Shown in pieces: positions 13,211 through 61,917 of a DNA stretch of 64,000 bases. Each line of letters begins with the position of its first letter. Within the stretch, counting starts at the first letter, position 1. Source of the stretch: Narthecium ossifragum. Its lineage: Eukaryota; Streptophyta; Magnoliopsida; Dioscoreales; Nartheciaceae. The notes under the pieces are model-generated. The model saw only the letters and a list, made by a program, of their open reading frames with translations, had not been told where the DNA came from and made no database searches. The stretch spans positions 15,796,062 to 15,860,061 of the forward strand of contig OY986973.1 in NCBI GenBank assembly GCA_963920575.1, written 5' to 3'. A program made the position numbers and the translations under genes.

Positions 13211-13734
13211 GCCCTGTCCCTTTCTTCTCCTTCCTTCTCTTCTCCTGTCATTTTCTCTCCTTCTCTCTCTCCTTCGGCTGACCTAGGGCTCGGAGACGCG
13301 GCTTTTGGAGTGCGGATCTTGGCGGCTCGACTGGTGGGACGCGTGGAGGAGCTACCCTACTTGCTCATGTAGGTGTTTCTACCTCGATCTTAGGATCGGG
13401 TTCTCCTAGGATAGGTTTTATGTACCTTCGCTGTAGGAATACATGTTAGAATGCTTTGTAGCTCCTTGCACATGTAGTGTAGCTCATTTCCTGTATTTCT
13501 ACATTGCGAATTCGGTATTTTAACCGTTGGTTTCCGTATTATCGTCGTTTTGTCGGTTTTCGCCCATTTGGACCTAGATAGGAGATTTAACCGTCAAAAA
13601 TGTAATTTTGTTATACCATTGGATTCCCCATCGAGAATTACAGTTGCTTGCGAAATTTCATCTTATTCCAACTTGATTTGATCCTTGAAATCCAAGGAAA
13701 TGGATTTTCGGCACTATTCTGATGAACTGTGCCT

Positions 13735-14090
13735 AAGGCTCGACGGTCGATCGGTGCATCGACCGTCAAGTATTGTTTGGCTCTTTCTGGGCCTGACGGT
13801 CGACCGTCGGATCGACCGTCAGGCTCTGTCGGGATTTTGGACTCCCACGGTCGATGGATCGATTGACCGCGGGCTTCCCCCTTTTTCACCCCGCCTCACG
13901 GTCGACCGTCGCATCGTCCGTGAGGCTCTGTCCCGTTTTGGGCTTCCCAGGGTCGATGGGAGGATCGACCGTCGCCCTTGGGGTTTTCCTCGTTTTGGTC
14001 CCACGGTCGACCGCCGGATCGACCGTGACATCGACCGTGGCCTCACGGTTGATCGCCGGATCGACCGTCACATCGACCGTGGGCCCTTGA
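13735..14090. repeat. palindrome array, gypsy B1 LTR
   Basis: Repeated half-units ACGGTCGA and TCGACCGT in alternating orientation, separated by 3-30 bases, with spacers such as AGGCTCTGTCCCG and GGCTTCCCA. It lies downstream of the TATA box, so it should be present in the transcript and could fold into a series of hairpins. Confidence 0.9.
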
Positions 14091-15339: not shown

Positions 15340-17512
15340 TCTATGACTACATTAATAGACTCCATAACAGTAGAGGTGCGTGAATTGAAAACTCTATAAG
15401 CTCTACTATTCAAGGATTACCCCACAAATATTCCTTCATCGCTTCGGGAGTCAAACTTACCGAGTTGCTCTCTATCCCTTAGCCCCCGTTTGGTTCGGGG
15501 TTAGAAAAAGTGGGGTTAAGGAGGAATAGGGTTAGAAAAAGTGGGGTTAAGGAATGGGGATAGGAAAAAGTAGAGTGGTGGTGGTAGGTGAAATGGAAAT
15601 AAACCCGTAATGATTACTTTTGGTGTTTGGGGTAGGAATGGGGATAACCTCATTAAAAACGGGGATAACCCCAAACCAAACAAGGCCTTAGGATGTAGCA
15701 TTTACTCCCAAAAACTTTGAAATATTTAACAGTGGGTTTCTTACCATACCACCAATGATATGGAGTCTTATTTGTGCTATGTCTGATGTAAGCCCTATTG
15801 GCGATGTAGCATGCTGTGTTAATCGCTTCATCCCAAAATCTCAAAGGCAGAGACTTGCCATGAATCATCACCCGTGCCATCTCCTGTAGTACTCTATTTT
15901 TTCGCTCCACGACCCCAGTCTGTTGTGGTCTATGAGGTGCAGAAAACTCCTGTTTGATGCCATGAGTAGCACAAAAACCATCAAAGTTAGAATTTTCAAA
16001 CTCTTTACCATGGTCTGATTGAATCATCCTGATTTTCACAGCAGTAGATCCTTTCTCCATTTTCAGCCTCAAACATAGATGTTTCTCTAATAAACTCTAC
16101 CCAAGTAAATCTAGAGAAATAATCTACGACAACAAAAATATATTTCTTACCTCCTAAGCTTTCAGTACGTGTAGGACCCATCAAATCCATGTGTATGAGC
16201 TCTAACGATTATGAGATAATAGTAGAATTCACCTTTTTATGTGCAGTTCTGATTTGCTTACCTTTTTGACAAGGTCCACATATAGTTTTTGGGGGAGAAC
16301 CTACTTTAGGCATTCTTCTAACAATCTCAGCATTAGACAATTTTGACAAATCTTGAAAGTTAGTGTGTCCTAGACGTTGATGCCAAAGATCAAAGTTATC
16401 TAATGTAGCTAAATTGCAAGCTGGACCAAAATATGCATAAATGCCATAACAGTTATTTAAAGTTCTCATTCCACTCATCAAAGTAGTTCCAAAATTCTTA
16501 TAGATACAACAATCATCTTTAGTGAATAGAACTTTCAAACCAGAATCACATATCTAGCTAATGCTTATAAGATTGGCTTTTAAGCCATCAACATAAAGCA
16601 CATCTAAAAGGTCAGGCATGCCAGGTACATGAATAGTTCCTTTACCAAAAAATTTTGAACACTTGCCATCTCCAAAGGTAACAATGCCACTAGCATATTT
16701 TTCAATGGAAGAGAAAAGAGCCTTATTACCACTCATATGCCTTGAACAACCACTGTCCAGGTACCAAACATTAGTATCATGGGTCTTTAAGGCAGTGTAA
16801 ACAACTAATGCTTTAAGATTAGATTTTCTAACCCATCTGGCCTTAGTATTTGGTTTAGCAAGGGCATATTGTCTCTATAGTGCAGCAGCTGTGTAATACC
16901 TAGTAAATTGAGGCCTATAATTTACAGTATAAGGATATCCATACAATATGTAGCAAAAGGGCATAATGTGTCTAGATTTACCACAATAATGGCATGCAGA
17001 AGAATGAGATTTTGTAATTTTACATGCAGTAACTTGAGGAATAGTAGCATGAACAAACTTGGTAATACCTTGAGTGTCGGAAGATGAAGCTCTAGCAGTG
17101 TAACCAAGACCAAATTTGACCGTATTCATCCTTTGGGCCTTCAAGATTTCATCCAGCTTTTGAGAACCTGCATTCATCTTCTCAACCGATCGGTTAGTAG
17201 CATCAAGTTTTTCTTCAAGAGATTTAACATGAGCACTAAGTTCAGTTTTTGCCACTTCCAATTCATGTAGATCTATCCGCCATTTTTCAAGTTCAACACG
17301 AAGAGACTCATTTTCAGATTTTGCTTTAGTCATCTCTAGTTCAATAACTACTCATTCTTTATCAGAAACTTTGAGCTTGCACTTTAATTCAGATATAGAT
17401 TTTTTTAGCTCATCATACTTGTCAGCCAAATCATTCTAAGCATTATTAACCTTTTATAAAGAGCATGAATAGTCTCAACATCCTCACTACCTAAATCATC
17501 ATCAGACTCAGG
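15340..17512 (-). pseudogene. copia A pol: second zinc knuckle, protease and integrase
   Basis: From the right: a coiled-coil-like stretch (ENESLRVELEKWRIDLHELE), a CCHC knuckle CHYCGKSRHIMPFC, then protease WYLDSGCSRHMSGNKALF. The GAG-pre-integrase zinc region has WHQRLGHTNFQDLSKL and CGPCQKGKQIR. The integrase core shows LMGPTRTESLGGKKYIF (first D), IQSDHGKEFENSNF (second D) and QQTGVVERKNRVLQEMARV (E). A frameshift splits the core near 16060, a stop replaces Y in FVGYS near 15425, and a MITE interrupts at 15482. The left end continues at 12913 across solo LTR B1; the right end continues into gag at 43525 across gypsy B. Confidence 0.9.
15482..15687. mobile_element. Tourist-like (PIF/Harbinger) MITE
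   Basis: 206 bases with imperfect ~22-base inverted ends, GCCCCCGTTTGGTTCGGGG on the left and GGCCTTGTTTGGTTTGGGG on the right (minus strand). They are flanked by TTA duplications at 15479-15481 and 15688-15690. This is the classic TTA target and terminal sequence of Tourist-type MITEs. It encodes nothing and sits between integrase and RT of copia A. Confidence 0.9.
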
Positions 17513-18175
17513 ATCAGTGTCACACTCCGACCCAGAAAACCCGTCCAGGACGGGGCGTGAGGGTTCCTATCACTATTCATCTCCAATTGACGCGATACAA
17601 AGCAGAAAAGACAGATAAATTTAAACAATTTATATTCCAGAGGAGAAACAGAAATTCAATTCATATATATACATCAAGTTGTACTGATACAAAATTCTTT
17701 ATCAAACTCCTCCAAGGGAAAGATTTTATACAATAATTTAAAACTCCTCGAAAGATGTTTATAATATACAAACTATAAAAAAGGTACAACAGTCGTCCTT
17801 CAGCAACCTCAAGTGCCTCTGGAAGTACTCGTGCCGCCAAACGCAGATCCCGCCGGCTCTACTGAAGAAGAACTGGCGCCTGCACCTGCAAACGCAGCCC
17901 GGGTAGGAGTGAGCGATAAGCTCAGTAGGGTTCTACTCTATGGCACACATAAAGGAGGAAAACAACAACAGTGTTGTCTCCCCGGTCAAGTCTAACGGAT
18001 GCCACGGGTCCCATAACCCTATCGATGTCCCAAGGGCTCCTGCATGAAACCTCTCTCCTGAACATGTTACCAGGAGGCCAAGGAACAATAACATGCAAGA
18101 TCACCCTTACCCAAGCAGGAATACCATGCCTTGGGGAACCACGTCGGGAACGCATCGATAACCATCCTTAGTACT

Positions 18176-19573
18176 TGATCGCTCGCAAATGCGTCGTTAA
18201 ATCAGATGCAAAACGCAATTTAGAATTTATAATCCTTCAATCAATACTACTCTACAAACGTAGAACAGTGGTGAGATCCGGAGTCGAACCACAGGGAAAG
18301 ATTGTTTAACAAAAGAAGAAATCAAATTAAATCTCTAAACTCAAGTCCTAAGGCGAAGAAAAGGAGTTTCAATAGTTTTGTTATCTAAGGAATTAAACTA
18401 CTGAAAAAGCAATAAAAATGTTGGGATAAGTCAATGAGAGAAAACCTAGGGATTACTCAATCCACTTTAGTTTCACTTCCTGTATTCTCTAGTTATCCTC
18501 TTGTTTTCTTATCTCGACATTATGGATTCACAGCTTCTTAAGCTTACATGGATCCAAACTTAGCATAGATTGTCTTCGAACTTAATCTGAGTACAACATA
18601 TCTTCATCTAGCATAGATTATCTCAAAGGCATACACAAAAGCAACATAAAAACCTTCCTACGAATCTCTACCATCAAGCACAGCAATCAAGTAGGAGTCA
18701 AAATACGTCAAGGAACTCTGTTCCCTCAACTCTTTATAAAATAAAACCATATTCATAGGATCATGTCTTTGAAAAGATAACAAGAATCAAACTAGAAAAT
18801 ACAAAGAAGATCTACTAAAGCTTCATGAGATCCCTAAGTACAGAATTAGCTACTCATCTTTGTGATGGAAGCCTTAGATTCGATGAAGAATGATTGGGAT
18901 CCACGTTGTAGCTCAATCTTCTCCAGAGAATCCTCCAAACCCTAGTTCTCTCTTTTCTCTCTATGGGAACCTCCAATTTTCGACTAGCAAACACCCTCTT
19001 ATAGGTGTATTCCCGGAATTAGGGTTTTGGTTTGAGTTGGACCTCAAGTGCAACTCGGATTTCTTAGTTCAAGTTTGACAGCCTCTTCCGGTCGCGACTG
19101 GGTTCAACCCGTCCGGAATTTGAGAATGAGTCCAACACGAAAGATGTAGATTAGGAAGTCTTCTATACTGTCCCGAAGATTTGATAATATTTGGACTTAT
19201 CTGGAATATTTGGTGAATATTCTCCCGCACGTTGACGGACCAGTCTTCCAGCAGCTAAATATTTTCATCTTCTTCAAAACTGCTATCCAGCCATCAGGAA
19301 TCTCTAAAAGTGTCCAATATGAATGTTGTACGTCTTGATGTCTTCTACATGTCACCAAAATTTCAGAATAGTTGGACATAATAATAATTTCTGATGAATA
19401 TTATGCTAACAGTCAACAGAGCAGTGTATTTCAGCATATTAACCCTTTTTTGTAATTTCTAGGTTGAATCTTCATTAAAACTGAAATCAACTAACAAACT
19501 ATCAAATACAAACACTTTCGGCCTAACAAAGGTAAATTAAGGGGTTTAATTATGAATATTTAGTGACTCATCA
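18176..19573. mobile_element. solo LTR, unassigned family
   Basis: 1,398 bases from TGATCGCTCGCAAATGCG to GACTCATCA, flanked by perfect GTACT duplications (18171-18175, 19574-19578). Near the left end GAGATCCGGAGTCGAACCAC followed by AGGGAA resembles a block common near the start of some plant LTRs. No gene; orientation not assigned. Confidence 0.85.
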
Positions 19574-19598
19574 GTACTTAGCCTTGGGAAGACAAAAC

Positions 19599-20614
19599 TG
19601 TTGGCCCAGATATTGTTTTGATGATGTCAATATATGTTTGATGATAAAACAATGATTTAATATTATTATCCTTTAATTTGGAAAGCATTAAAATCATATT
19701 TAATGAGTTTTTGTACTGACGGTCGATGCGACGGACGATGCATGGATCGACCGTGGGGAATGGCGGTTGATGCGTGGATCGACCGCGGAAGTTGTTCTTG
19801 GGAAAATAGGCTGACGGTCGATGGACCGATCGACCGTGGCCTATGTGACTTGGCTCAAAGGAGTGATGGTCGATCGGTGCATTGACCGTGGGAAGCGGTT
19901 TTCTAGACAGAGGCTGACGGACGATGTCACGGTCGATGGGACGGTCGACCGTGAGGCTTGATGGTCGATAGGTGGATCGATCGTGGCTCAAGGAAAGCCT
20001 GGCGGACGATGTCACGGACAATGCGACGGTCGACCGTGAGTCCAGAATAGAGCCGTTAAAGAGCCGTTGCAGGAGAAAAAAATAGCCGTTGGGAGGCTAT
20101 TTGGAAGGGTTGGAAGCTCAGCTATAAAAGAAAAAGTCCAGCAAACTTGTCAAGTACTTAGAGGGAGCTAAGGGATTATTGTAATCATATTCTAGCAAGT
20201 TTCTATCTCTTATTAGCGAACTAAACCTTTGTAAAACTACTTCAAGTGTGAAGTAGACTTTGAGAGAAATATCTTAGAGAGATATTAGAGTGATTGTAAG
20301 GTTGCCAAGCACCCGTAAGCTTGGTGGATAGGTTGCCAAGCACCCGAAAGCTTGGTGGGCAACTTGTAAGAGGTCTTGCAAGTAGTGGAACCTCAAGGAG
20401 GACCTTGAGTGAAGTGGACGTAGGCAAGGTTTGCCGAACCATTATAAATCTGGTGCAATCTCTCTAACTCTCTTCTCATATCCCTTGTTTAAATGTTTAT
20501 TATCTGCTCTTATCTTTAGCAAGCATATGGTTTAATTAGACTCCTCCTATTTTGATTTCTTTAATTGATTTTAACATATAAAGCCTAAGATAAACCCGCT
20601 CTCTTAGAGCTTCA
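19599..20614 (+). mobile_element. solo LTR of the copia D/E/F family (diverged)
   Basis: 1,016 bases beginning TGTTGGCCCAGATATTG and ending CTTAGAGCTTCA. It parallels TGTTGATCCTAACCTTG and CTTGGACCTTCA of element E. Flanks are AAAAC (19594-19598) and AACAC (20615-20619); the undisturbed site in the 5' LTR reads GACAACACGACC, so the left copy has one mutation. It carries the palindrome array (19718-20041) and a TATAAAAG box near 20123. Confidence 0.85.
19718..20041. repeat. palindrome array, solo copia LTR
   Basis: ACGGTCGA/TCGACCGT half-units with spacers including GGGAAGCGGTTTTCTAGACA and GAGGCTGACGGACGATG, as in element E. It lies upstream of the TATA box. Confidence 0.85.
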
Positions 20615-21187
20615 AACACGACCTCTAAACCTCAAAACATTGATCAGAGTCAACTATAAGACATCCTCGATAACATAAGATTCAATTATAATCACGCCCT
20701 AATCCTCACTACCCAACCACGGTCCTAAGGCTAGATCCGAGCTACCCGAGAGCCTCGGATCGGCGATCAACCCATCACCCATCTAACCTCATATGCCTCT
20801 AATGCATACAATGCATGAACCTATACAAACATCTACCCTAGATGTCTCTATATGCCACATCATCAGTTATAGGTTCAACAGATATACAATAGCCCTCGGC
20901 ACTCGCCGACAAGAGGCTAAGGTTCCATAATTCCTCATTAGCTAGCACTCATAGCTAGCTAACGGCTAGGCAACCAAATAAGCATTTAACTACTTATCAA
21001 ACCAAGTATTAAATGCACTTAAAACCACAATTCACCCAAAAGGGATAAGCACGCAATTCAATCCTCCATTTCAAAAGAAATCCCTTGAAAACGCCATGAA
21101 AACAACGTGCATGCTTCCAAACATGCTTAAGGATCTATCGCAAACGAAATCCCTTTAAGAAAGGCCAAGAAACAGTGTTTAAGGGCT

Positions 21188-21535
21188 CAGGGTCGATGCG
21201 AAGATCTATCCGACGATCGATCCGACAGTCGACCGTGAGGCCACGGTCGATCCGACGATCGACCGTGAGACCAAAAAGAGGAAAAAACACATGGGCGACG
21301 GTCGATCGGTGTATCGACCCGGGGAAGCCAAAATGGAGACAGAGCCTGACGGTCGATGCGACGGTCGACCATGAGGCGAAATGGAAAAAGAGAAGATCCC
21401 GCGGTCGATCCGAGCATCGACCATGGGAGACCAAAAACCAGACAGACCCTGACGGTCGATGCAACGGTCGACCGTCAGGCCTAGAAAAAGCGTATCAACG
21501 CTTGACGGTTGATCCACCGATCGACCGTCGAGCCT
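21188..21535. repeat. palindrome array, gypsy B 3' LTR
   Basis: Alternating ACGGTCGA/TCGACCGT half-units. Positions 21301-21370 align without gaps to 47464-47533 in the copia E LTR, including the non-palindromic spacer ACAGAGCCTGACG. Confidence 0.9.
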
Positions 21536-21855
21536 AATGCACGGTTCATCAGAACATTGCCGAAAATCTAATTTCTTGGATTTGAATGATCAAATCAAGT
21601 TGAAAGTTGATGAAACTTTGCAAGCATGCATAATAGATGATGGAGAAGCTAATGATATGAATAAAACACGATTTTGATGGTTAAATCTCAAACCTAGGTC
21701 TCAATGGCCGAAAACTGATAAAACGACGATAATACGGAAATCGCCCGATAAAATACAGAAACCAAGTTATAGAGCTACTCTACAGAAGCCATAACACACA
21801 TGCTACAACTTACACAAGATTCTAACATGTATTTCTACAGCGAAAGCACATAAAG

Positions 21856-24252
21856 TGTCACACCCCGACCCAGAAAAGCCATCCAGGACGGGGCGTGAGG
21901 GTTCCTATCACTATTCATCTCCAATTGGCGCGATACAAAACGGAAAAGACAGATAAATTTAAACAATTTATATTTCAGAGGCGAAATAGAAATTCAATTC
22001 ATATATATACATCAAGTTGTACTGATACAGAATTCTTTATCAAACTCCTCCGAAGCAAAGATTTTATACAATGATCCAAAATTTCTCAAAGGATGTTTAT
22101 AATATACAAACTATCAAAAAGATACAACAGTCGTCCTCCGCCAACTACAAGCGCCTCTGGAAGTACTTGCGCCGCCAAACGCAGATCCCGCCGGCTCGAC
22201 TGAAGAAGAACTGGCGCATGCACCTGCAAACGCAGCCCGGGTAGGAGTGAGCGATAAGCTCAGTAGGGTACTACTCTATGGCACACAGAAAGGAGGAAAA
22301 CAACAACAGTGTTGTCTGCCCGCTCAAGCCTAAGGAATGCCACGGGGTCCCACAACCCCTATCGACTCCCGAAGGGATCCTACTCTTCTCAACCGACCAC
22401 GCTGGGAACATCAACCAACACGCTGGGAGGAAAAGGACCAGAACCAGTAGGATTACCGTTACCCAGCAGGAAACCACTGCCTGGGGACCATGTCAGGGAC
22501 ATCGACAACCATCCTTAACACTTAGCCTTGGGAAGACAACACGACCTCTAAACCTCAAAACATTGATCAGAGTCAACTATAACATATCCTCGATAACAAG
22601 AGATTCAATTATAATCATGCCCTAAGGCTAGATCCGAGCTACCCGAGAGCCTCGGATAGGCGATCAACCCATCGCCCGCCTAACCTCATATGCCTCTAAT
22701 GCATACAATGCATGAACCTATACAAACATCTACCCTAGATGTCTCTAAATACCACCACATCAGTTATAGGTTCAACAGATATACAATAGCCCTCGACACT
22801 CGCCGGCAAGGGCCTAGGTTCCACAATTCCTCATTAGCTAGCACTCATAGCTAGCTAATGGCTAGGCAACCAAATAAGCATTTAACTACTTATCAAACCA
22901 AGCATTAAGTGCTAATAAAACCACAATTCACCCAAAAGGGTAAGCACGCGATTAAATCCTCCATTTCAATAGAAATCCCTTGAAAACCCCATGAAAACAA
23001 CGCGCATGCATCCCAACATGCTTAAATACTTATCACAAACGAAGTCCGTTTAAGAAAGGCCAAGAAACAGTGTTTAAGGGCTCACGGTCGATCCGACAGT
23101 CGACCGTACGGTCGATGTCACGGTCGATCCGACGGTCGACTGTGAGACCAAAACGAGGAAAAACACATGGGTGACGGTTGATCGGTACATCGACCGTGGG
23201 AAGCCGAAAACGGGACATAGCCTCATGGACGATGCGACGGTCGATCTGACGGTCGACCGTGAGGCGGAATGAAAAGGTGAGGGAGTCCGCGGTCAATCGG
23301 TACATCGACCGTGGGAAATCAAAAACCCGACAGAGCCTGACGGACGAAGCGACGGTCGATTTGACGGTCGACCGTCAGGCTCAAAAGAAGAGTATCAACA
23401 ATTGACGGTCGATCCACCGATCCACCGTCGAGCCTACTGCACAGTTCATCAGAACAGTGCCGGAAATCCAATTTCTTGGATTTGAATGATCAAATCAAGT
23501 TGGAAGTTGATGAAACTTTGCAAGCATGTGTAAAAGATAACCAGGAAGCTAATGGTATGATCAAAACACGATTGTGATGGTTAAATCTCAAACCTAGGTC
23601 TCAATGGCCGAAAACCGACAAAACGGCGATAATACGGGAATCATCCGATAAAATATGAAAAACGACTGATAGGAAAACAAGAAGCAAGGTAGACAACACA
23701 TGCTACAAGCTACACAACATTCTAACATGTATTCCTACAGCGAAAGCACATAAAACCTATCCTAGGAGAACCCGATCATAAGATCGAGGTAGAAACACCT
23801 ACTTGGGCAAGTAGGGCAGCTCCTCCTCCGATCCCTCAACTCCGATCGCCGAAATCCGCTAATCGAAAGCCGCGCTCCGAAGCCCTAGCACAGCCGTAGG
23901 AGAGAGAGAGAGAGAAAACGACAGGAGGGAAGAAAGAAAGAGAGAGAGAAAGGGGCATGCCTTATATAGAGATTAGGATTGATCTCAGCCGTCCGATTCG
24001 ATCTTTCCTGATCGAGCTCCGATCTTCCGATCGGACGCGCCCTGAAGGTTCTAATCAAACACATACATCAATCCAAGGCCGTGTGTGAAACGCCAGTGTG
24101 AAACTGACCACCAGGGAGCATATTTACCAAAATGCCCATGGGGTCGAAATCGCCACACGATTGCCCGATCGTGCACGACGCGGAAACAAATCAACAGGAA
24201 AACGACCCTCGACCCACGCGGTAGAGCCAAGTCAGAGGGATGGGCCCTCACA
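21856..24252 (-). mobile_element. solo LTR of gypsy B inserted into a gypsy B LTR (B2)
   Basis: 2,397 bases from TGTCACACCCCGACCC to GGGCCCTCACA, flanked by perfect TAAAG duplications (21851-21855, 24253-24257). It lies within the 3' LTR of the same family, which resumes at CCTATCCTAGGAG. Same orientation as its host. It carries its own palindrome array. Confidence 0.95.
23080..23435. repeat. palindrome array, solo LTR B2
   Basis: The same ACGGTCGA/TCGACCGT architecture as at 21188-21535 but with different unit losses and base changes, showing how the array drifts between copies of one family. Confidence 0.85.
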
Positions 24253-24869
24253 TAAAGCCTATCCTAGGAGAACCCGATCATAAGATTTAGGTAGAAACAC
24301 CTACTTGGGCAAGTAGGCCAGCTCCTCCACCGATCCCTCAACTCCGATCGCCGAAATCCGCTCCTCGAAAGCCGCGCTCTGAAGCCCTAGCACAGCCGTA
24401 GGAAAGAGAGAGAGAGAGAGAAAACGACAGGAGAGAAGAGAAAGAAAGAGAGAGAAAGGGACATGCCTTATATAGAGGTTAGGATCGATCTCAGCTGTCC
24501 GATTCGATCTTTCCTGATCGAGCACCGATCTTCCGATCGGACGCGCCCTTAAGGTTCTAATCAAACATATACATCAATCCAAGGCCGTGTGTGAATCACG
24601 GGTGTGAAACTGACCACTAGGGAGCATATTTATCAAAATGCCCCTGGGTCGAAATTGCCATACGATCACCCGATTGCACCCGACGCGGAAACAAACCAAC
24701 AAAAAAATGGCCCTCGACCCACGCGGTCGAGCCAGGTCAGAGGGATGGGCCCTCACAACCTAACAACCTTAAAAAGAATTTCGTGCCGAAATTCAATAAG
24801 GATGAAGCCGGGGAAAAAGAATCAACTAGGCCTACCTGCACAACCAAAGCTACAACTAGGGGCGCCAAC

Positions 24870-25320: not shown

Positions 25321-25495
25321 CCAGGTGTGAGGCCCGCTGGGTCTATCGTGGGACAAGATGCCTGCGCCTGGAGGGCGGGGCTAAGTCGGGTAGCCGGGTA
25401 AGCAATCCCACAACGCCTGGGTATGGTCCGGGTTCGATATAAGTATATAGTAAGCCCTTAATTGGCACAACGCGTTTTAAAGCCGTGCTGGCAGT

Positions 25496-25572
25496 GATCC
25501 ATCAGAAAACTCCATGGTTAAGCGTGTTCGACCTGGAGTAGTCACACGATGGGTGACCTACTGGGAAGTTTT
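25496..25572 (+). promoter_or_regulatory. 5S-rRNA-derived pol III promoter, Cassandra LTR 1
   Basis: ATCAGAAAACTCCATGGTTA, AGCGTG and then GATGGGTGACCTACTGGGAA parallel plant 5S rRNA (box A, intermediate element, box C). In Cassandra this region drives RNA polymerase III transcription of the element. Confidence 0.9.
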
Positions 25573-25920
25573 CTCAGATTTCTACGGTGAGCCAAAAGCG
25601 GAGAATATTGTGTCGGGTGGATCATGGTCGGACTGGGAGCCCGCGGGTCGAGGCCCAGTGGAGGGCCGGGGTGTTACAGTATCGTATCAGAGCCAGTTCC
25701 CAGCCGAAAATTGTGCCAGCGAGGACGCTGGGCCTCAAAGGGGGTGGATTGTAAGGGCCACTGGGTCTACCGTGGGACAAGATGCCTGCGCTTGGAGGGC
25801 GAGGCTGAGTCGGGTAGCCGGGTAAGCAATCCCACAACGCCTGGGTATGGTCCGGGGTTCGATATAAGTATATAGTAAGCCCTTAATAGACACAACGCGT
25901 TTTAAAGCCGTGCTGGCAGT

Positions 25921-25997
25921 GATCCGCCAGAAAACTCCAAGGTTAAGCGTGCTTGCTTTGGAGCGGTCCCGGGATGGGTGACCCACTGGGAAGTTTT
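25921..25997 (+). promoter_or_regulatory. 5S-rRNA-derived pol III promoter, Cassandra LTR 2
   Basis: GGTTAAGCGTGCTTG and GGGATGGGTGACCCACTGGG. This middle copy stays closest to true 5S rRNA in box A and box C. Confidence 0.9.
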
Positions 25998-26119
25998 CCT
26001 AGATTTCTGCGGTGAGCCAAAAGTGGACAATATTGTGTCGGGTGGGGCCCTCGGGTGGATCCTGGTTGGACCGGGAGCCCGCGGGCCGGGGCCCAGTGGA
26101 GGGTCGGGGCGTTACAGTA

Positions 26120-26132
26120 TGGTATCAGAGCC
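26120..26132 (+). promoter_or_regulatory. Cassandra primer binding site
   Basis: TGGTATCAGAGCC just after LTR 2 is the standard plant site for initiator-methionine tRNA priming. The copy after LTR 1 (25682-25694) reads TCGTATCAGAGCC, one base different. Confidence 0.85.
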
Positions 26133-26357
26133 GGTTCCCAGCCAGAAATTGTGCCGGCGAGGACGCTGGGCCTCTAAGGGGGTGGATTGTGAGGCCCGCT
26201 GGGTCTACCGTGGGACAAGATGCCTGCGCCTGGACGGCGGGGCTGAGTCGGGTAGCCGGGTAAGCAATCCCACAACGCCTGGGTATGGTCCGGGTTCGAT
26301 ATAAGTATATAGTAAGCCCGTAATTGACACAACGCGTTTTAAAGCCGTGCTGGCAAT

Positions 26358-26434
26358 GATCCGTCAGAAAACTCCATGGTTAAGCGTGTTCGACCTGGAG
26401 TAGTCACACGATGGGTGACCTATTGGGAAGTTTT
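26358..26434 (+). promoter_or_regulatory. 5S-rRNA-derived pol III promoter, Cassandra LTR 3
   Basis: Nearly the same as in LTR 1 (GGTTAAGCGTGTTCGACC, GATGGGTGACCTATTGGGAA). The shared changes argue that outer LTRs 1 and 3 are the original pair and LTR 2 came from another copy. Confidence 0.9.
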
Positions 26435-26545
26435 CCCAGATTTCTACGGTGAGCCAAAAGCGGACAATATTGTGTCGGGTGGATCCTGGTCGGACTGGGA
26501 GCCCGCGGGTCGGGGCCCAGTGGAGGGCCGGGGTGTTACACCAGG

Positions 26546-30011: not shown

Positions 30012-31179
30012 CCAAGAGGGGGGTGAATTGGACTCTTTTTCCAAAATCTAGATCAATGAAAAAACCAGGTAGGAGAGAACTAATACCTTAAAAGCTTGTA
30101 GATGGAATGAAACTAAAGCAAAATAGCATGCAAGAATAATATTAAGAAGGTTAGAGAGATGGCACCGATTTTATAGTGGTTCGACCCAACTCTTGGTCTA
30201 CGTCCACTTCTCCCAAGGCTCCCCTTGAGGTTTCACTACTTGCAAATTCTTTACAAGCTTTTCCTCCAAGCTTCTTGGTGCTTGGTGACCTTACACTCAC
30301 AACCACTTGCTGTTGAATATCTCTCAAGATACCTCTTCACACTTGAAGAAGGTTTACAAAAGGTTGTAGAACAAAAGAGAATAAGTAGAAAGCTTCTCTA
30401 AAACTTGCTCAGATGATCTCAATAATAATGATCAAAGTTGTGGCAAGTTTACATCAAGGAATTACTTATATTTGGGCTTCAACCAGCTCAACAAGGAGCT
30501 CCAACGGCTGTCTCCAACTCTCCAACGGCTAGTTTTTTACTCTGCGCGTTGCTGGCGGTCGATCCATGCATCGTCTGTTACGTATAAAAACTCAGCCTTT
30601 TTGCTCGACGGTCGATCCACGCATCGTCCGTCACTCTCACGGTTGACCGTGACATCTATTGTCACATCGTCCGTCAGCCTCTGTTGAGAGAATCGCTTCC
30701 CAGGGTCGATGCTCGGATCGACCGTCGTTCCTTTACTTTTCTTCATAAGTGCGCCACGGTCGACCGCCGCATCAACCGTCGCATCGACCGTCGCATCCTC
30801 CGTCAGGCTCTGTCAAGAAAAATGCTTCCCACGGTCGATGCACCGATCGACTGTCGCTTCTTCACTTTTCTTCATTAATGCGCCACGGTCGACCGCCGCA
30901 TCGACCGTCGAATCGTCCGTCAGGCTCTGTGAAGAAAAACGCTTTCCACGGTTGATGCACCGATCGATCGTGAGCCAATAACGCATATTTCCAAGTATGA
31001 TGCATTCAACACATGGATCGACCGTCACATTTCCACGGTCGATCCTTGCATCGACCGTCAGTACAAAAATGACTTAAATATTGAATTTAAGATTTCCAAT
31101 TAAAGGAGTAATAAATATTAGACATATATTTTATCATTTAATGTATATTGGCATCATCAAAACAAGGTTAGGATCAACA
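30012..31179 (-). repeat. copia D 3' LTR, lacking 7 terminal bases
   Basis: 1,168 bases from CCAAGAGGGGGGTGAATTGG to GTTAGGATCAACA. The other copy starts TGAAGGTCGAAGAGG, so TGAAGGT is missing here. It contains the palindrome array 30550-31060. Confidence 0.9.
30550..31060. repeat. palindrome array, copia D 3' LTR
   Basis: Half-units TCGACCGT/ACGGTCGA with spacers CAGGCTCTGTCAAGAAAAA and GCTTCCCACGGTCGATGC, repeated three times with a ~100-base period. On the element's own strand it lies upstream of the TATA box. Confidence 0.9.
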
Positions 31180-32935: not shown

Positions 32936-33061
32936 GGTGCACCGACTGGTTAGGATTTTGAGAGGGGAAGAGGAGATCGTGGTTTGAGAGAGAGGAGGAG
33001 CACGGTCGTTTGAAGAAGTTAGGGCACGGTCGAACCAGGAGAAGAATGAAGGGTTAATCGG

Positions 33062-33330
33062 GAGTTATAAGGGGAGATTAGAGAGGAAATGACTTAAATA
33101 GCCCCTACTTAAGTTGTCACACGGTCCGTGGCGGTCGATCGTAAGAACTTGGCGGTCGACCGTCGCAAACATTTTGTGTAAAAAGGCAATCACACGGTCG
33201 ACCGTGGCACACAATAGGTTTAATTGTCTAAAAATGAAAGCCCACGGTCGTTCCGAGGAAGTTGGCGGTCGACCGTCCAGTGCGAATGTACGCACGGTCG
33301 ACCGTTAAGAAGTCTGGATCGGCCATCAGT
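33062..33330 (-). promoter_or_regulatory. palindrome cluster and TATA-like box before the extra gene (D)
   Basis: On the minus strand a cluster of GGTCGACCG-type palindromes (33118-33330) is followed by CTCCCCTTATAACTCCC (TTATAA at ~33064-33069). A C/T-rich leader with AAACCCTAA-like sequence then runs to the ATG at 32935. Copies E and F keep the same order. Confidence 0.6.
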
Positions 33331-36646: not shown

Positions 36647-36666
36647 GCATTCCTACAAATAGGAGA

Positions 36667-38435: not shown

Positions 38436-39607
38436 TGAAGGTCGAAGAGGGGGGTGAATTGGACTCTTTTTCGAAAATCTAGATCAATGGAAAAACCAGG
38501 TAGGAGAGAACTAATACCTTAAAAGCTTGTAGATGGAATGAAACTAAAGCAAAATAGCATGCAAGAATAATATTAAGAAGGTTAGAGAGATGGCACCGAT
38601 TTTATAGTGGTTCGACCCAACTCTTGGTCTACGTCCACTTCTCCCAAGGCTCCCCTTGAGGTTCCACTACTTGCAAATTCTTTACAAGCTTTTCCTCTAA
38701 GCTTCTTGGTGCTTGATGACCTTACACTCACAACCACTTGCTGTTGAATATCTCTCAAGATACCTCTTCACGCTTGAAGAAGGTTTACAAAAGGTTGTAG
38801 CACAAAAGAGAATAAGTAGAAAGCTTCTCTAAAACTTACTCAGATGATCTCAATAATAATGATCAAAGTTGTGGCAAGTTTACATCAAGGAATTACTTAT
38901 ATTTGGGCTTCAACCAACTCAACAAGGAGCTCCAACGGCTCTCTGCAACTCTCCACCGGCTAGTTTTTTACTCTGCGCGTTGCTGGTGGTCGATCCATGC
39001 ATCGTCCGTCACGTATAAAAACTCAGCCTTTTTGCTCGACGATCGATCCACGCATCGTCCATCACTCTCACGGTCGACCGTGACATCGACCGTCACATCG
39101 TCCGTCAGCCTCTGTTGAGAGAATCACTTCCCAGGGTCGATGCTCGGATCGACCTTCACTCCTTTACTTTTCTTCATAAGTGCGCCACGGTCGACCGCCG
39201 CATCGACCATCGCATCGTCCGTCAGGCTCTGTCAAGAAAAACGCTTCCCACGGTCGATGCACCGATCAACCGTCGCTTCTTCACTTTTCTTCATTAATGC
39301 GCCACGGTCGACTGCCGCATCGACCGTCGCATCGTCCGTCAGGCTCTGTGAAGAAAAACGGTTCCCACGGTCGATGCACCGATCGACCGTGAGCGAATAA
39401 TGAATATTTCCAAGTATGACGCATTCAACACGGTAGATCCATGGATCGACCGTCACATTCCCACGGTCAATCCTTGCCTCGATTGTCAGTACAAAAATGA
39501 CTTAAATATTGAATTTAAGATTTCCAATTAAAGGGGTAATAAGTATTAAACGTATATTTTATCATTTAATGGATATTGGCATCATCAAAACAAGGTTAGG
39601 ATCAACA
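38436..39607 (-). repeat. copia D 5' LTR
   Basis: 1,172 bases from TGAAGGTCGAAGAGG to TTAGGATCAACA on the plus strand, near-identical to 30012-31179. Contains the palindrome array 38985-39490. Confidence 0.9.
38985..39490. repeat. palindrome array, copia D 5' LTR
   Basis: Same unit order as in the 3' LTR, with scattered point changes in the palindrome arms and one unit fewer in the middle block. Confidence 0.9.
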
Positions 39608-40179: not shown

Positions 40180-41140
40180 TCAACTGGGGCTGGTGGAAGA
40201 GCTAAAGTCTGCTGGGGTGGCGGGTACTGGTAGGGCTGGAAAGGTGGCTGAACCCGGTCTGGGTACTCGCGGTCTGGAAGTGCGTAGACTCCCCCTCTGG
40301 GCCTGCCTCGACCTCCGCCGCGACCTCTGCCTCTCCCGGCTCCTGGTGTCCGCCAACCTCAGCCTGCTCCGCCACGAACGGAATGTGCCTTCAACGTCGG
40401 ACAGTCTCGGTGAAAGTGCCCTGGCTGCTGGCACTCGAAGCACACGGGAGGTCCAAGCGCTAGCTGCTGGCTCTGGCCTTCTCCCCCGGACGTCTGCCCC
40501 TGAGGCCCAACTGTAAGGAGTGGCTGGCCTCCCTGCCTGGGCTGCTGCTGGTACTGGGTTGGGTGACGCTGGTATGGCTGCTGGTGTCCTGAGAATCTTC
40601 GCTGCCTCCACGAACCTCCTCTGCCCTGAGCTGCTCTCTATGGCTGCCCTCTGCCACTGGCACTCGCAGACGACGTCGGCTAGACTGCCCTGGGCCCAGG
40701 CTCCTGCAACTGGGCCTCAACAGCTAAGGCACAGTCCAGCGCCTCTGCGTACGTGCTAGCGTGTTGAGCCGCGATCAAACACCTTAGCTCGGGCCTAAGC
40801 CCCCACTGGAACTGCTCTACTCTGGCAAGAGGGTCCGCCGACACCGCTCCGGCAAATCTGGCTAGTCTAGTGAACCTAGCTGCATACTGCACTACCGACT
40901 GAGTACCCTGAGAAAGGGTCTGGTACTCACGGACAAGGGCCGAGCGCGCACTGCGGGGAAAGAATGCGCCGAGAAAAGACGAACGAAACAGGGCCCACGA
41001 TGGGTCACTCCCGTCCCTGGTGGCCTGAACAGAGCGCCACCAGTCCAAATTGTCCCCGTCGATCTGGAACGTGGCAAGTCTGACCCGAATCCGGTCATCC
41101 TGGATGAACAGAGTGTCAAGGACGCGACTGACTCCCTCCA
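40180..41140 (-). pseudogene. gypsy B gag, N-terminus deleted
   Basis: Gag blocks: RVLDTLFIQDDRIRVRLATF, DNLDWWRSVQATRDGSDPSW, SFLGAFFPRSARSALVREYQ, LSQGTQSVVQYAARFTRLAR (the retrotrans_gag pattern), and YAEALDCALAVEAQLQEPGP. A stop or frameshift lies near 40680, then a CCHC knuckle CFECQQPGHFHRDC near 40390-40433. The N-terminus is missing: at ~41140 the frame passes directly into LTR sequence, with no primer site or leader. This is a deletion joining the end of the 5' LTR to mid-gag. Confidence 0.88.
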
Positions 41141-43519
41141 CCAAGAAAACCCATCCAGGACGGGGCGTGAGGGTTCCTATCACTATTCATCTCCAATTGG
41201 CGCGATACAAAGCGAAAAAGACAGATAAATTTAAACAATTTATATTCCAGAGGTAAAACAGAAATTCAATTCATATATATACATCAAGTTGTACTGATAC
41301 AAAATTCTTTATGAAACTCCTTCAAGGGAAAGATTTTATACAATAATCTAAAATTCCTCGAAAGATGTTTATAATATACAAACTATCATAAAGGTACAAC
41401 AGTCGTCCTCCAGCAACCTCAAGCGCCTCTGGAAGTACTCGCGCTGCCAAACGCAGATCCCGCTAGCTCTTTTGAAGAAGAACTGGCGCCTGCACCTGCA
41501 AACGCAACCCAGGTTGGAGTGAGCGATATGCTCAGTAGGGTTCTACTCTACGACACACAGAAAGGAGAAAAATAACAACAGTGTTGTCTCCCCGCTCAAG
41601 TCTAACGGATGCCATGGGTCCCATAACCCTATCGATGTCCCAAGGGCTCCTGCATGAAACCTCTCTCCTGAACATGTTACCAGGAGGCCAAGGAACAGTA
41701 ACATGCAGGATCACCCTTACCCAAACAGGAATACCATGACTTGGGGAACCACGTCGGGAACGCATCGATAACCATCCTTAGTACTTAGCCTTGGGAAGAC
41801 AACACGACCTCTAAACCTCAAAACATTGATCAGAGTCAACTATAACACATCGTCAACAACATAAGATTCAATTATAATCACGGCCTAATCCTCATTTCCC
41901 AACCACGGTCCTACGGCTAGATCCGAGCTACCCGAGAGCCTCGGATCGGCAATCAACCCATCGCCCGCCTAACCTCATATGCCTCAAATGCATACAATGC
42001 ATGAACCTATACAAACATCTACCCTAGATACCTCTATATGCCAAATCATCAGTTATAGGTTCAACAGATATACAATAGCCCTCGGCACTCGCCTGCAAGA
42101 GATTAAGGTTCCACAATTCCTCATTAGCTAGCACTCATAGCTAGCTAATGGCTAGGCAACCAAAGAAACATTTAACTACTTATCAAACCAAGTATTAAAT
42201 GCACTTAAAACCACAATTCGCCCAAAGGGGATAAGCACGCAATTCAATCCTCCATTTCAATAGAAATCCCTTGAAAACTCTATGAAAACAACGTGCATGC
42301 TTCCAAACATGCCTAAGGATCTATCACAAACAAAATCCATTTAAGAAAAGCCAAGAAACAGTGTTTAAGGGCTGACGGTCGATGCGACGATCGACCGTGA
42401 AGCCACGATCGATATCACGGTCGATCCGACGGTCGACTGTGAGACCAAAAAGAGGAAAAACACATGGGCGACGGTCGATCGGTGCGTCGACTCTGGAAAG
42501 CCAAAATGGAGACAGAGCCTGACGGTCGACCGTGAGGCAAAATGGAAAAAAGAGAAGATCCCGCGGTCGATTCGAGCATCGAGCCTGGGATACCAAAAAC
42601 CAGACAGAGCCTGACGGTCGATGCAACGGTCGATCCGACGATCGACGGTCAGGCCCAGAAAAAGCGTATCAACGCTTGACGGTCGATCCACCGATCGACT
42701 ATCGAGCCTAATGCACAGTTCATCAGAACAGTGCCGGAAATCCAATTTCTTGGATTTGAATGATCAAATCAAGTTGGAAGTTGATGAAACTTTGCAAGCA
42801 TGCGTAATAGATGATGGAGAAGCTAATTATATGAATAAAGCACGATTTTGATGATTAAATCTCAAACCTAGGTCTCAATGGCCAAAAACTGACAAAACGG
42901 CGATAATACGAAAATCGTCCGATAAAATACGAAAACCAAGTTATAGAGCTACTCTACACAAGCCACACACATGCTACAAGTTACACAACATTCAAACATG
43001 TATTTCTACAGCGAAAGCACATAAAGCCTATCCTAGGAGAATCCGATCATAAGATCGAGGTAGAAACACCTACTTGGGCAAGTAGGGCAGCTCCTCCACC
43101 GATCCCTCAACTCCGATCCCCGAAATCCGCTCCTCGAAAGCCGCACTCCGAAGCCCTAGCATAGCCGTAGGAGAGAGAGAGAAAACGACATGAGAGAAGA
43201 GAAAGAAAGAGAGAGAAAGGGACATGCCTTATATAGAGATTAGGATTGATCTCAGCCGTCCGATTTGATCTTTCCTGATCGAGCTCCGATATTCCGATCG
43301 GACGCGCCCTTAATGTTCTAATCAAACACATAGATCAATCCAAGGCCGTGTGTGAAACGCGGGTTTGAAACTGACCACTAGGGATCATATTTACAAAAAT
43401 GCCCTTGGGGTCGAAATTGCCATACGATCGGCCGATCGCACCCGACGCGGAAACAAACCAACAGAAAAATGGCCCTCGACCCACGCGGTCAAGCCAGATC
43501 AGAGGGACGGACCCTCACA
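41141..43519 (-). repeat. gypsy B 5' LTR, lacking ~16 terminal bases
   Basis: About 2,379 bases. The outer end CCCTCACA (43519) is intact. The inner end begins CCAAGAAAACCCATCC where other copies read TGTCACACCCCGACCCAGAAAAC. No large insertion lies inside. The palindrome array is at 42375-42705. Confidence 0.88.
42375..42705. repeat. palindrome array, gypsy B 5' LTR
   Basis: Matches the array at 21188-21535 unit by unit, with some losses. Spacers GACAGAGCCTGACGG and GGGCGACGGTCGATCGG are kept. Confidence 0.9.
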
Positions 43520-47138: not shown

Positions 47139-48264
47139 TGTTAATCCTAACCTTGTTTTGATGATGCCAATATACATTAAATGATAAAATATATGTTTAA
47201 TACTTATTACCCCTTTAATTGGAAATCTTAAATTCAATATTTAAGTTATTTTTGTATTGACGGTCGATGCAAGGATCGACCGTGAGAATGTGACGGTCGA
47301 TCCATGGATCGACCGTGTTGAATGCAAATAAGCGTCATTGGCTCACGGTCGATCGGTGCATCGACCCTGGGAAGCATTTTTCTTCACAGAGCCTCACGGA
47401 CGATGCGACAGTCGATGCGGTGGTCAACCGTGGCGCATTAATGAAGAAAGTGAAGAAGCGACGGTCGATCGGTGCATCGACCGTGGGAAGCGTTTTTCTT
47501 CACAGAGCCTGACGATCGATGCGGCGGTCGACCGTGGCGCATATATGAAGAAAAATCAAGGAGCAACGGTGGATCCGAGTATCGACCATGGGAAGCGACT
47601 TTCTCAACAGAGGCTCACGGACAATGTGACGGTCGATGTCACGGTCGACCGTGAGAGTGACGGACGATGCGTGGATCGACCGTCGAGCAAAAAGGCTGAG
47701 TTTTTATACGTGACGGACGATGCATGGATCGACTGCTAGCAATGCGCAGAGTAAAAAACTAGCCGTTGGAGCTCCTTGTTGAGCTGGTTGAAGCCCATGT
47801 ATAAGTAGTTCCTTCATGTAAACTTGCTAGAACTTTTATCATCATTATTGAGATCATCTGAGCAAGTGTTAGAGAAGTTTTCTACTTATTCTCTTTTGTG
47901 CTACAACCTTTGTAAACCTTCTTCAAGTGTGAAGAGGTATCTTGAGAGATAGTCAACAGCAAGTGGTTGTGAGTGTAAGGTCACCAAGCACCAGGAAACT
48001 TGGAGGAAAAGCTTCTAAGGGATTTGCATGTAGTGGAACCTCAAGGGGAGCCTTGAGAGAAGTGGACGTAGACCAAGAGTTGGGTTGAACCACAATGAAA
48101 TCTGTGCCATCTCTCTAACCCTCTTTACTGTATTCTTGCATGCCTCTTTGCTTTAGTTTCATCTCATCTACAAGCATTCAAAGTATTGTTTCTCTCGTAC
48201 CTGGTTTTTTCCATGAAACTAGATTTTCGAAAAGATTCCAATTCACCCCCCTCTTGGACCTTCA
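47139..48264 (+). repeat. copia E 5' LTR
   Basis: 1,126 bases from TGTTAATCCTAACCTTG to CTCTTGGACCTTCA. Palindrome array at 47258-47735; TATA-like TATAAG at 47800-47805. Confidence 0.9.
47258..47735. repeat. palindrome array, copia E 5' LTR
   Basis: ACGGTCGA/TCGACCGT half-units with a ~100-base higher period. 47464-47533 aligns ungapped to 21301-21370 of gypsy B. It lies upstream of the TATA box, hence U3. Confidence 0.9.
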
Positions 48265-53394: not shown

Positions 53395-53752
53395 ATGGCC
53401 GATCCAGACTTCTTAACGGTCGACCGCCAACTTCCTCGGATCGACCATGGATTTCATTTTTAAACCCATTGTGCTCCACGATCGACCGCTAACGCTTTGG
53501 ATCGATCGTGGGCTTGTCTTTTTACACAAAATGTGTGCGACGGTCGACCGCCCCGGACTGTGTGACAACTTATGTAGGGGCTTTTTCGTCATTTCCTCTC
53601 CAATCTCCCCTTATAACTCCCGATCAACCCTTCATTCACCTCCTGGTTCGACCATGCCCTAAGCTCCTCAAACGTCCGCAGCCACTGCTCCTCCTCTCTC
53701 TCAAGCCACGATCTCCTATTCCCCTCTCAAAACCCTAACCAGCTGGTGCACC
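53395..53752 (+). promoter_or_regulatory. palindrome cluster, TATA-like box and leader before the extra gene (E)
   Basis: ACGGTCGACCGCCAAC, GGATCGACCATGG, CACGATCGACCGCTAACG and GACGGTCGACCGCC lie within 53415-53560. TTATAA follows in CCCCTTATAACTCCC (53611-53616), then a C/T-rich leader with AAAACCCTAACC (telo-box-like) just before the ATG at 53753. The order and spacing are kept in D and F, which supports a separate promoter for the extra gene. This is inference; no transcript is known to me. Confidence 0.6.
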
Positions 53753-55482: not shown

Positions 55483-56598
55483 TGTTGATCCTAACCTTGT
55501 TTTGATGATGCCAATGTACATTAAATGATAAAATATATGTTAATATTTATTACCCCTTTAATTGGAAATCTTAAATTCAATATTTAAGTTATTTTTGTAC
55601 TGACAGTCGATGCAAGGATCGACCGTGGGAATGTGACGGTTGATCCATGGATCGACCGTGTTGAATGCAAATATGCGTCATTGGCTCACGGTCGATTGGT
55701 GCGTCGACCGTGGAAAGCGTTTTTCTTCACAGAGCCTCACGGACCATACGACGGTCGATGCGGCGGTCGACCGTGGCGCATTAATGAAGAAAGTGAAGAA
55801 GCGACGGTTGATCGGTGCATCGACCGTGGAAAGCGGTTTTCTTCACAGAGCCTGACGGACGATGCGACGGTCGATGCGGCGGTCGACCGTGGCGCATATA
55901 TGAAGAAAAATTAAGGAGCGACGGTCGATTCGAGTATCGACCATGGGAAGCGACTTTCTCAACAGAGGCTCACGGACGATATGACGGTCGATGTCACGGT
56001 CGACCGTGAGAGTGACGGACGATGCGTGGATCGACCGTCGAGCAAAAAGGCTGAGTTTTTATACGTGACGGACGATGCATGGATCGACCGCCAGCAATGC
56101 GCAGAGTAAAAAACTAGCCGTTGGAGAGTTGCAGAGAGCCGTTGGAGCTCCTTGTTGAGCTGGTTGAAGCCCATGTATAAGTAGTTCCTTCATGTAAACT
56201 TGCTAAAACTTTTATCATCATTATTGAGATCATCTGAGCAAGTGTTAGAGAAATTTTCTACTTATTCTCTTTTGTGCTACAACCTTTGTAAGCCTTCTTC
56301 AAGTGTGAAGAGGTATCTTGAGAGATAGTCAACAGCAAGTGGCTGTGAGTGTAAGGTCACCAAGCACCAGGAAGCTTGGAGGAAAAGCTTGTAAGGGATT
56401 TGCAAGTAGTGAAACTTCAAGGGGAGCCTTGATAGAAGTAGATGTAGACCAAGAGTTGGGTCGAACCATTATAAAATCAGTGCCATCTCTCTAACTCTCT
56501 TTACTGTATTCTTGCATGCCTCTTTGCTTTAGTTTCATCTCATCTACAAGCATTCAAAGTGTTGTTTCTCTCCTACCTGGTTTTTTCCATTAAACTAG
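55483..56598 (+). repeat. copia E 3' LTR, truncated at its end
   Basis: TGTTGATCCTAACCTTG start. The match to the 5' LTR stops at AAACTAGAT (56598); the expected final ~45 bases ending CTTGGACCTTCA are missing. The palindrome array is at 55600-56095. Confidence 0.88.
55600..56095. repeat. palindrome array, copia E 3' LTR
   Basis: Same units as at 47258-47735 with a different set of point changes, so half-sites lost in one LTR are often intact in the other. Confidence 0.9.
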
Positions 56599-58794: not shown

Positions 58795-59196
58795 TCGATC
58801 CAGACTTCCTGACGGTCGACCGTGCGTAAATTTGCACTGGACGGTCGACCGCCAACTCTTTGGATCTGTCGTGGGCTTTCATTTTTAGACCTATTGTGTG
58901 CCACGGTCGACCGCCAACGTCCTCGGATCGACCGTGCGACTTAAATACTACACATATTGCTCGCGACGGTTGACCGCCAACTTCTTACGGTCGGCCGCCA
59001 CGGATTGTGTGACAATAAGTGAGGGCATTTCAGTCATTTTAACTCAATCTCCCCTTATAACCCCCGATCAAAGCCTCCTCATTTCCCCTGGTTCGACCGT
59101 GCCCTAGCTCCTTCAACGACCGCAGCCCGCTGCTCTTCCTCTCTCAAAACCACGATCTACTCCTCCCCTCTCAAAACCCTAACCAGCCCATGCACC
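58795..59196 (+). promoter_or_regulatory. palindrome cluster, TATA-like box and leader before the extra gene (F)
   Basis: GACGGTCGACCGTGCG, GGACGGTCGACCGCC, CACGGTCGACCGCCAACG and GACGGTTGACCGCC (58810-59005), TTATAA in CTCCCCTTATAACCCCC (59055-59060), and a C/T-rich leader with AAAACCCTAACCAG before ATG 59197. Same order as D and E. Confidence 0.6.
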
Positions 59197-60941: not shown

Positions 60942-61917
60942 TGTTGATCCTAACATTGTTTTGATGATGCCAATATACATTAAATGATAAAATATATGTT
61001 TAATATTTATTACCCATTTAATTGGAAATCTTAAATTCAATATTTAAGTCACTTTTGTACTGACGGTCGATGCATGGATCGACCGTGTGGTTGCACGTTG
61101 GATGCACCATACTTGGCAAAATGTATTGTTGGCTCACGGTCGATCGGTGCATCGACCGTGGGAAGCTATTTTCTTGACAAAGCCTGACAGACGATGCGGC
61201 GGTCGGCCGTGGAGCATTTATGAAGAAAAGTGAAGAAGTGACGGTTGATTGGAGCATCAACCGTGGGAAGCTTTTTTCTTGACAGAGGCTGACGGACGAT
61301 GTGACAGTCGATGTCACAGTCGATCGTGAGACGTGACGGACGATGCATGGATCGACCGTCGTTCAAAAACGCTGAGTTTTTGTACATGACGGACGATGCA
61401 TGGATCGACCGCCAGCAAAGCACAGAGTAAAAAACTAGCCGTTGGAGAGTTGCCGAGAGCTGTTGGAGGTCATCTTTGAGCTTGTTGAAGGCTAGATAAG
61501 TAGTTCTATGTTGTAAACTTGCCATAACTTCTATCATTATTATTGAGATCATCTGAGCAAGTATTAGCAAGAGTTACTACTTATTCTCTTTAGAGCTACA
61601 ACCTTTGTAAATCTTCTTCGAGTGTGAAGAAGTACTTTGAGAGTTATCCAACAACAAGTGGCTGTGATTGTAAGGTCACCAAGCACCGGGAAGCTTGGAG
61701 GAAAGGCTTGTAAACGATTTGCAAGTAGTGGAACCTCAAGGGAAGCCTTGAGAGAAGTGGACATAGACCAAGAGTTGGGTCAAACCACTATAAAATCGGT
61801 GCCATCTCTCTAACCTTTCCTTGATATAACTCTTGCATGATAGTTCTCTTCTACCTGATTTTTCCATTAATCTAGTTTTTCGAAAAGAGTCAAATTCACC
61901 CCTCTCTTGGACCTTCA
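60942..61917 (+). repeat. copia F 3' LTR
   Basis: 976 bases from TGTTGATCCTAACATTG to CTCTTGGACCTTCA. Shorter than the E LTR because the palindrome array (61060-61412) has fewer units. Confidence 0.9.
61060..61412. repeat. palindrome array, copia F LTR
   Basis: Includes a perfect hairpin at 61135-61160: arms CACGGTCGAT and ATCGACCGTG with a CGGTGC loop. Confidence 0.9.

Follow-up and report, generated by a model that had tools for sequence, protein, structure and literature searches.

Probable capture of a Sirevirus LTR palindrome array by a Ty3/gypsy lineage in Narthecium ossifragum

The 64,000-nucleotide stretch of Narthecium ossifragum DNA analysed here (the window, on contig C11) contains LTR retrotransposons of two superfamilies. 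The first is represented by a gypsy element, B, which is coded on the minus strand and whose LTR X pairs with LTR R. LTR X (17518..24757, minus) is interrupted, and self-comparison resolves it into three pieces (17518-18176, 20615-21855 and 24249-24757), the disruptions being an insert at 18177-20614 and a solo gypsy LTR at 21856-24252. LTR R (41140..43519, minus) has a TATA-like string, TATATAAGG, at LTR position 285 in the coding sense and its array at ~830-1140; a third copy of the gypsy LTR, A (12918-15334), has the other orientation. Between the two LTRs of B, matches to Retrotrans_gag, zf-CCHC, RVP_2, RT_RNaseH and Integrase_H2C2 occur in pieces, and another gypsy copy, L043, gives RVT_1, RNaseH, H2C2 and SH3_Tf2-1, with a nested insertion separating RNaseH from integrase; the window pieces and L043 together present the gypsy-type order of gag, protease, RT/RNaseH and integrase. 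In L043 the C-terminal piece also matches Chromo (PF00385; E 0.00065, 20.0 bits) under the cut-off of 25.1, and with this sub-threshold match added to the others we call B chromovirus-like. Two further observations concern the surroundings and relatives of B. A 438-bp tandem repeat (2.8 copies, 25326-26540) separates LTR X from the gypsy RNaseH/integrase piece, and at L044 (C9:13200500-13210400) a gypsy LTR end that is 85% like R adjoins internal pieces whose likeness to the window element is only 67-80%, possibly a trace of LTR exchange among gypsy subfamilies.

The second superfamily is represented by copia elements D (30012-39608, minus) and E (47139-56600, plus), the latter 91% identical to D, and by F (58611-61923), a partial 3' part whose pol lay outside the scanned parts. 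D matches Retrotran_gag_2, gag_pre-integrs, rve, SH3_retrovirus and RVT_2, and E matches Pol_BBD, gag_pre-integrs, SH3_retrovirus and Transposase_32, which together provide a copia-type gag and pol. An ORF matching Transposase_32, which we take to be an env-like ORF, is present in D, E and F, that of E alone passing the curated cut-off; the RT core string of D and E is presumably typical of Sireviruses. There is one polypurine tract at the 3' LTR junction in each of E and F. The LTRs of all three elements contain arrays of a palindromic repeated motif with a CGG-CCG core: in E at 47261..47735 (plus; LTR E5), 5' of a TATA-like string placed by eye at ~47800, and at 55619..56090 (plus; LTR E3), in the two LTRs of D at 30556..31057 and 39071..39452 (both minus), and in F at 61064..61411 (plus). 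Extra motif copies lie just 5' of the env-like ORFs, at or upstream of the ORF start in D (33027..33304, minus; the same core with other spacers) and upstream in E (53417..53550, plus) and F (58813..58934, plus). Judged by these features of their sequence, D, E and F fit Sirevirus-type Ty1/copia elements. LTR G (19599 to ~20480), which shares 66% identity with the LTR of F, appears to be a more distant Sirevirus-like LTR, and has an array at 19720..20036 (plus) followed by TATAAAAG at ~20124. Elsewhere in the window a third copia RT, with the RT core motif as in D and E, adjoins gypsy LTR copy A (11455-12879, minus), and a cluster of TTGGATCGATCCAA-type palindromes, of which some of the ~12 copies are at 21-bp spacing, occupies 4413-4743.

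Arrays are likewise found in the gypsy LTRs. That of LTR X (21191..21530, plus), delimited by marked half-sites and by alignment to the E5 and D5 arrays, comprises leading palindromes, then two units spaced by 103 bp, then a terminal palindrome; the others lie in the solo LTR (23085..23430, plus; half-sites and alignment), in LTR R, which is also sampled locus L013 (42376..42700, plus; half-sites and array scores), and in copy A (13744..14085, minus; half-sites and alignment). In R, the solo LTR and A alike the TATA-like site is at LTR position 285 and most half-sites fall at ~830-1165, the array starting ~550 bases past the TATA-like site and being inverted relative to coding, unlike the Sirevirus placement, which is 5' of the TATA box and in the sense of transcription. 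The comparison that gave rise to this study is between a module in LTR X (21301..21370, plus, in an element coded on the minus strand) and its counterpart in the LTR of copia E (47464..47533, plus). The original prediction counted 56 identities in 70 ungapped columns, and a recount gives exactly the same figure. The other particulars of that prediction are borne out as well: the domain matches place B in Ty3/gypsy and D and E in Ty1/copia, the sense of the module relative to the coding strand is opposite in B and in D/E, and the module lies 3' of the TATA-like site in B and 5' of that in E. This pair is above average, in that gypsy-copia unit identity averages 0.71-0.77, and in the 10-base blocks beyond the 70-bp module only 0-8 of 10 positions are identical, the likeness ending at the array.

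How far this likeness is a property of the families was assessed in gypsy and copia LTR loci, 30 of each, which ranked highest among 40 scored per family out of 2,903 gypsy and 1,312 copia first-look candidates; all were found by an anchor outside the array, and both sets include window copies. The array is present in 29 of the 30 gypsy loci; the exception, L017, has lost ~1 kb from within its LTR (R positions 878-1932 in the coding sense), including most of the array and ~800 bases past it. When the 30 gypsy loci were compared with the window's six copia-type arrays (D, E, F and G), all 30 spacer shuffles were beaten in 174 of 180 comparisons, of which L017 supplies six, the six non-winning comparisons not being itemised by locus. 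Similarly, local scores between gypsy and copia arrays are 215 +- 28 in the sense orientation (minimum 117, n=870, that is, 29 x 30), against 78 +- 12 (maximum 115) in antisense, where the palindromes are retained. Against the three env-proximal clusters the gypsy arrays score 40 in sense and 56 in antisense, which is the baseline, and the 8-base-gap palindrome that characterises the LTR arrays was found in none of the three (D, E, F); an env cluster was accordingly rejected as the source of a capture. The LTR flanks, compared between R and E5 as one LTR per family, score no higher than shuffles, and no Sirevirus LTR remnant outside the array was seen in the gypsy flanks in this comparison.

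The cross-family match is thus confined to the array, as had been proposed, and includes the spacers, with 16 of the 20 columns of the two spacer blocks agreeing at a level of at least 0.8; identity restricted to the half-sites, the outcome named in advance as fatal to the proposal, did not occur. At the level of sequence these comparisons establish homology of the arrays, spacers included and limited to the array, in nearly all sampled gypsy LTRs. Convergence of palindromes alone is rejected on the spacer-shuffle, antisense, env-array and flank controls, and shared spacers together with a match limited to the array argue for exchange or capture instead.

The unit that the two families have in common is organised as half-site, 8-base gap, half-site, spacer block 1, a 10-base middle, spacer block 2 and a second palindrome. 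Spacings between units are 115 in nine and 103 in four of the 21 gypsy cases, and 116-117 in 34 and 104-107 in four of the 42 copia cases, with a step of ~12 bp in both families. The middle spacer is 10 bases long in 35/36 gypsy and 59/61 copia units, and its sequence is A-rich in all 36 gypsy units and T-rich in 56 of the 61 copia units, the remaining five being A-rich. Among GTCGA-TCGAC pairs with gaps of 0-19 the gap is exactly 8 in 114/116 gypsy and 173/174 copia pairs, its length being almost constant while part of its filling varies; the next commonest arrangement is an overlapping form (87 gypsy, 77 copia). Gaps above 19 also occur, in gypsy at 20 (30 pairs), 26 (seven) and 30 (one) and in copia at 20 (two) and 27 (21), and are read as half-sites other than nearest partners. 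One loop sequence is common to some last gypsy units and the last copia unit, in a comparison from which L013 and L022, being the same places as window copies, were omitted. Strict unit-by-unit collinearity is not upheld, since in mean identity to the numbered copia units both gypsy units come closest to unit 2, unit 3 being the most distant, which contradicts a match by position, and we claim homology of the arrays alone. L017 was left out of the loop, array-score, variation, CpG, gap, middle-spacer and helical analyses.

The arrays also differ from their surroundings in composition. The CpG observed/expected ratio is 1.56 in the R array and 0.89 in its flanks, and 1.59 in the E5 array and 0.15 in its flanks; the CpG-island trait of Sireviruses is accordingly present in the E5 array, as far as the observed/expected ratio alone defines it. 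One array per family was folded as single-strand RNA, and each does better than its shuffles, with z of -3.4 for gypsy R and -6.1 for copia E5. Within copia the array identity of 0.889 is below that of the flanks (0.957-0.965), and within gypsy the array value of 0.844 is inside the flank range of 0.80-0.92 (pieces with less than 80% coverage being left out), such that neither family gives a sign of simple sequence constraint, and within-family conservation was discarded as evidence for it. Palindrome spacings fall near multiples of 10.5 bp (R of 0.71 in gypsy and 0.86 in copia), a helical phasing that is only suggestive, given that the copies are related and that gypsy prefers a period of 11.0, which fits slightly better (0.74).

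One question then is how widely the module is distributed in the 379.4 Mb genome. The exact spacer pattern matches 1,536 times (795 + 741) and its reversed control not at all. Among 100 listed matches the middle has 10 bases in 98 and 9 bases in two, and is copia-like (T) in 64, gypsy-like (A) in 33 and a third string in three, one of which adjoins copia locus L075. The palindrome pattern is far more abundant, with 29,281 matches against 54 for its reversed control, and the gap is 8 bases in 43 of 52 listed places. The exact spacer pattern misses real units, matching 10 times in the 30 gypsy loci and 29 times in the 30 copia loci, as against 104 and 137 palindrome matches, and an array that it fails to match need not have other spacers. 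At these per-locus ratios the 1,536 spacer matches correspond very roughly to 7,000-16,000 palindromes, fewer than are found, and further families with palindrome arrays are likely on these counts. Among the arrays listed in the first 2.9 Mb of contig C1, the exact spacer pattern matches only one, at 1.52 Mb. Two pairs of 8-base-gap palindrome arrays there, 7.6 kb apart (C1:75583-75950 and 83181-83528) and 7.15 kb apart (C1:2073995-2074118 and 2081143-2081266), have no exact-spacer match and are perhaps LTR pairs of further families. No copia RT core was found between the arrays of these two pairs, which says little, the search pattern failing to cover the D/E core.

It is this excess of exact palindromes over the control, together with the LTR-like C1 pairs, that would be expected if a third source, either another mobile element or a host repeat, had given the array to both families and if many families carried it. 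We consider this unlikely. In the window and in eight longer loci every place of the module is in an LTR of the gypsy family or of Sirevirus type, albeit in loci chosen around gypsy matches, which weakens the point, and the accessible part of one account describes Sireviruses as carrying such motifs widely, in 13 elements (PMC2829016).

The relations among the units themselves were examined in two trees, from which the E and R units of the window, whose loci the set already contained, and three stretches that did not qualify as true units were left out. In a quick tree of 137 units, gypsy and copia fall on either side of one branch (SH-aLRT 94), and the gypsy branch attaches to eight copia units, most of which are second units (95 starred). 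In a careful tree of 136 units (56 gypsy, 80 copia), calculated without the long-branch copia unit cp_L052_u1of2, one branch again separates the families (support 90/79) and is recovered by 93% of the 200 bootstrap trees, from a bootstrap that had not fully settled. The trees are short (73 columns) and unrooted and do not give the direction of transfer. They are therefore compatible with the gypsy lineage having been the donor and the Sireviruses the recipients, a reading that we regard as very improbable on other grounds: in the part of the Sirevirus account at hand, CGG-CCG-core motifs, including an identical core from grapevine, are a Sirevirus feature, found within the LTR as well as ahead of env (PMC2829016), and env clusters are present here too.

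The same separating branch bears on the supposition that gypsy and copia arrays continue to exchange sequence, for instance by gene conversion. Both families are abundant and copia D sits inside the gypsy element of the window, and opportunity would thus exist; nevertheless, with the units sorting by family on a single branch and the middle spacer being largely family-specific, ongoing exchange seems to us highly unlikely. One old transfer fits a one-branch separation better than repeated trade does, and here the original prediction needs amending: its case for exchange or capture over convergence stands, on the spacers and on the array-limited match, and its image of a module traded repeatedly between families does not. 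That the palindromes were selected independently in the two families, the spacers being alike by chance or as further binding sites, is scarcely credible, since order, polarity, period and spacer letters all agree and the antisense and env controls are far lower, even if the env clusters illustrate that the core can multiply without LTR spacers.

The reading that we prefer, and consider probable, is that a Sirevirus LTR repeated-motif array entered the LTR of a chromovirus-like gypsy lineage, most likely once, long ago and in inverted orientation, was then amplified, and would constitute a cluster of sites for a dimeric host factor. Several observations are relevant to the age of the event. 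The units of G are 0.83-0.84 identical to those of D/E, more than the gypsy units are, and gypsy is consequently not clearly nested within Sirevirus diversity; by the same comparison the transfer may be older than the divergence of the Sirevirus subfamilies concerned (D/E and G). Within the gypsy lineage, a diverged LTR stretch (L010:5178-6313) that is 73% identical to R nonetheless has units, 85-88% identical to those of X, which argues for the array being old there. No gypsy relative came to light in which the array is absent and the site empty.

As to mechanism, the passage of the array from Ty1/copia Sirevirus LTR to Ty3/gypsy LTR, a direction that we infer, would have taken place at the level of DNA, either through a nested antisense Sirevirus LTR that was later trimmed or as filler DNA at the repair of a break. 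Entry as DNA is favoured over template switching on sense RNA, because template switching would keep the sense of the array, which is inverted in gypsy. The captured array would then have been amplified together with the gypsy lineage.

In both settings the array could serve as a cluster of putative sites bound by a dimeric host DNA-binding factor. Two features point in this direction, namely the near-constancy of the 8-base gap while part of its filling varies, and the fact that gypsy and copia arrays are oriented and placed differently with respect to the TATA box. A fixed gap also favours contact by a protein dimer over RNA hairpins, which would tolerate other loops; it would, of course, also be kept by common descent alone. 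From the sequence we regard a host-factor role as plausible. A role in escape from silencing is, in contrast, unsupported, and the arrays may instead attract small RNAs, by analogy with such palindromes elsewhere, which the accessible parts of the literature tie to small RNAs (PMC5311732, PMC10760457). More tentatively, one may envisage, as a possibility that we hold somewhat less likely than its opposite, that the palindrome grammar, comprising inverted GGTCGA half-sites, the 8-base gap and near-helical spacings, constitutes a common regulatory currency that is captured between superfamilies and read by one dimeric host factor. Unrelated elements with this grammar would then be switched on, or silenced, together.

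The regulatory regions of LTRs are usually regarded as the property of a family. If the capture of a Sirevirus array by a gypsy LTR is correct, a control array can pass from one superfamily to another and there be retained and multiplied with its sense reversed and its place shifted across the TATA box. The parts retained in both lineages, that is, the half-sites, the 8-base gap, the two spacer blocks and the length, not the sequence, of the middle spacer, would be functional candidates, and the copia/gypsy pair of arrays would offer a natural comparison in which the function of such arrays can be tested.

The copia half of this picture fits what has already been described. According to Bousios et al. 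2010 (PMC2829016), the palindromes of the Sirevirus repeated motif have a CGG-CCG core and cluster 5' of the TATA box, in the LTR's upper half, and again ahead of env; as far as the available part of that paper goes, one of the elements in which it is described lacks the CGG-CCG core and env copies occur only where an env gene exists. The core listed there for a grapevine element, CGGTCGACCG, is the core found here, and the clusters of D, E and F before the TATA box and before env are placed in the same way, such that the arrays of these elements appear to be the described repeated motif. The motif is called Sirevirus-specific and absent from classic (copia) retrotransposons, gypsy elements not being reported on in the part available (PMC2829016). 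The new part is therefore the array, with its spacers, in a gypsy LTR, inverted and downstream of the TATA box. Parts of LTRs are known to move between elements by LTR swapping and template switching (PMC5668417, PMC1950507), although these reports, to the extent available, concern members of the same family or complex joined insertions and not a regulatory array held by copia and gypsy; a search of titles and the beginnings of abstracts, with subscription journals mostly outside it, likewise returned no report of an array common to both. Closer parallels come from maize, where, according to the accessible portions of two papers, Sirevirus palindromes are hotspots of small RNAs in highly variable LTR regions (PMC5311732, PMC10760457). 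The maize motif is another sequence; the copia array described here is similarly more variable than its flanks, and one array of each family surpasses shuffles in folding. The maize palindrome is, moreover, the commonest motif of structured Helitron regions (PMC10760457, available in part), an earlier case of one motif occurring in two superfamilies.
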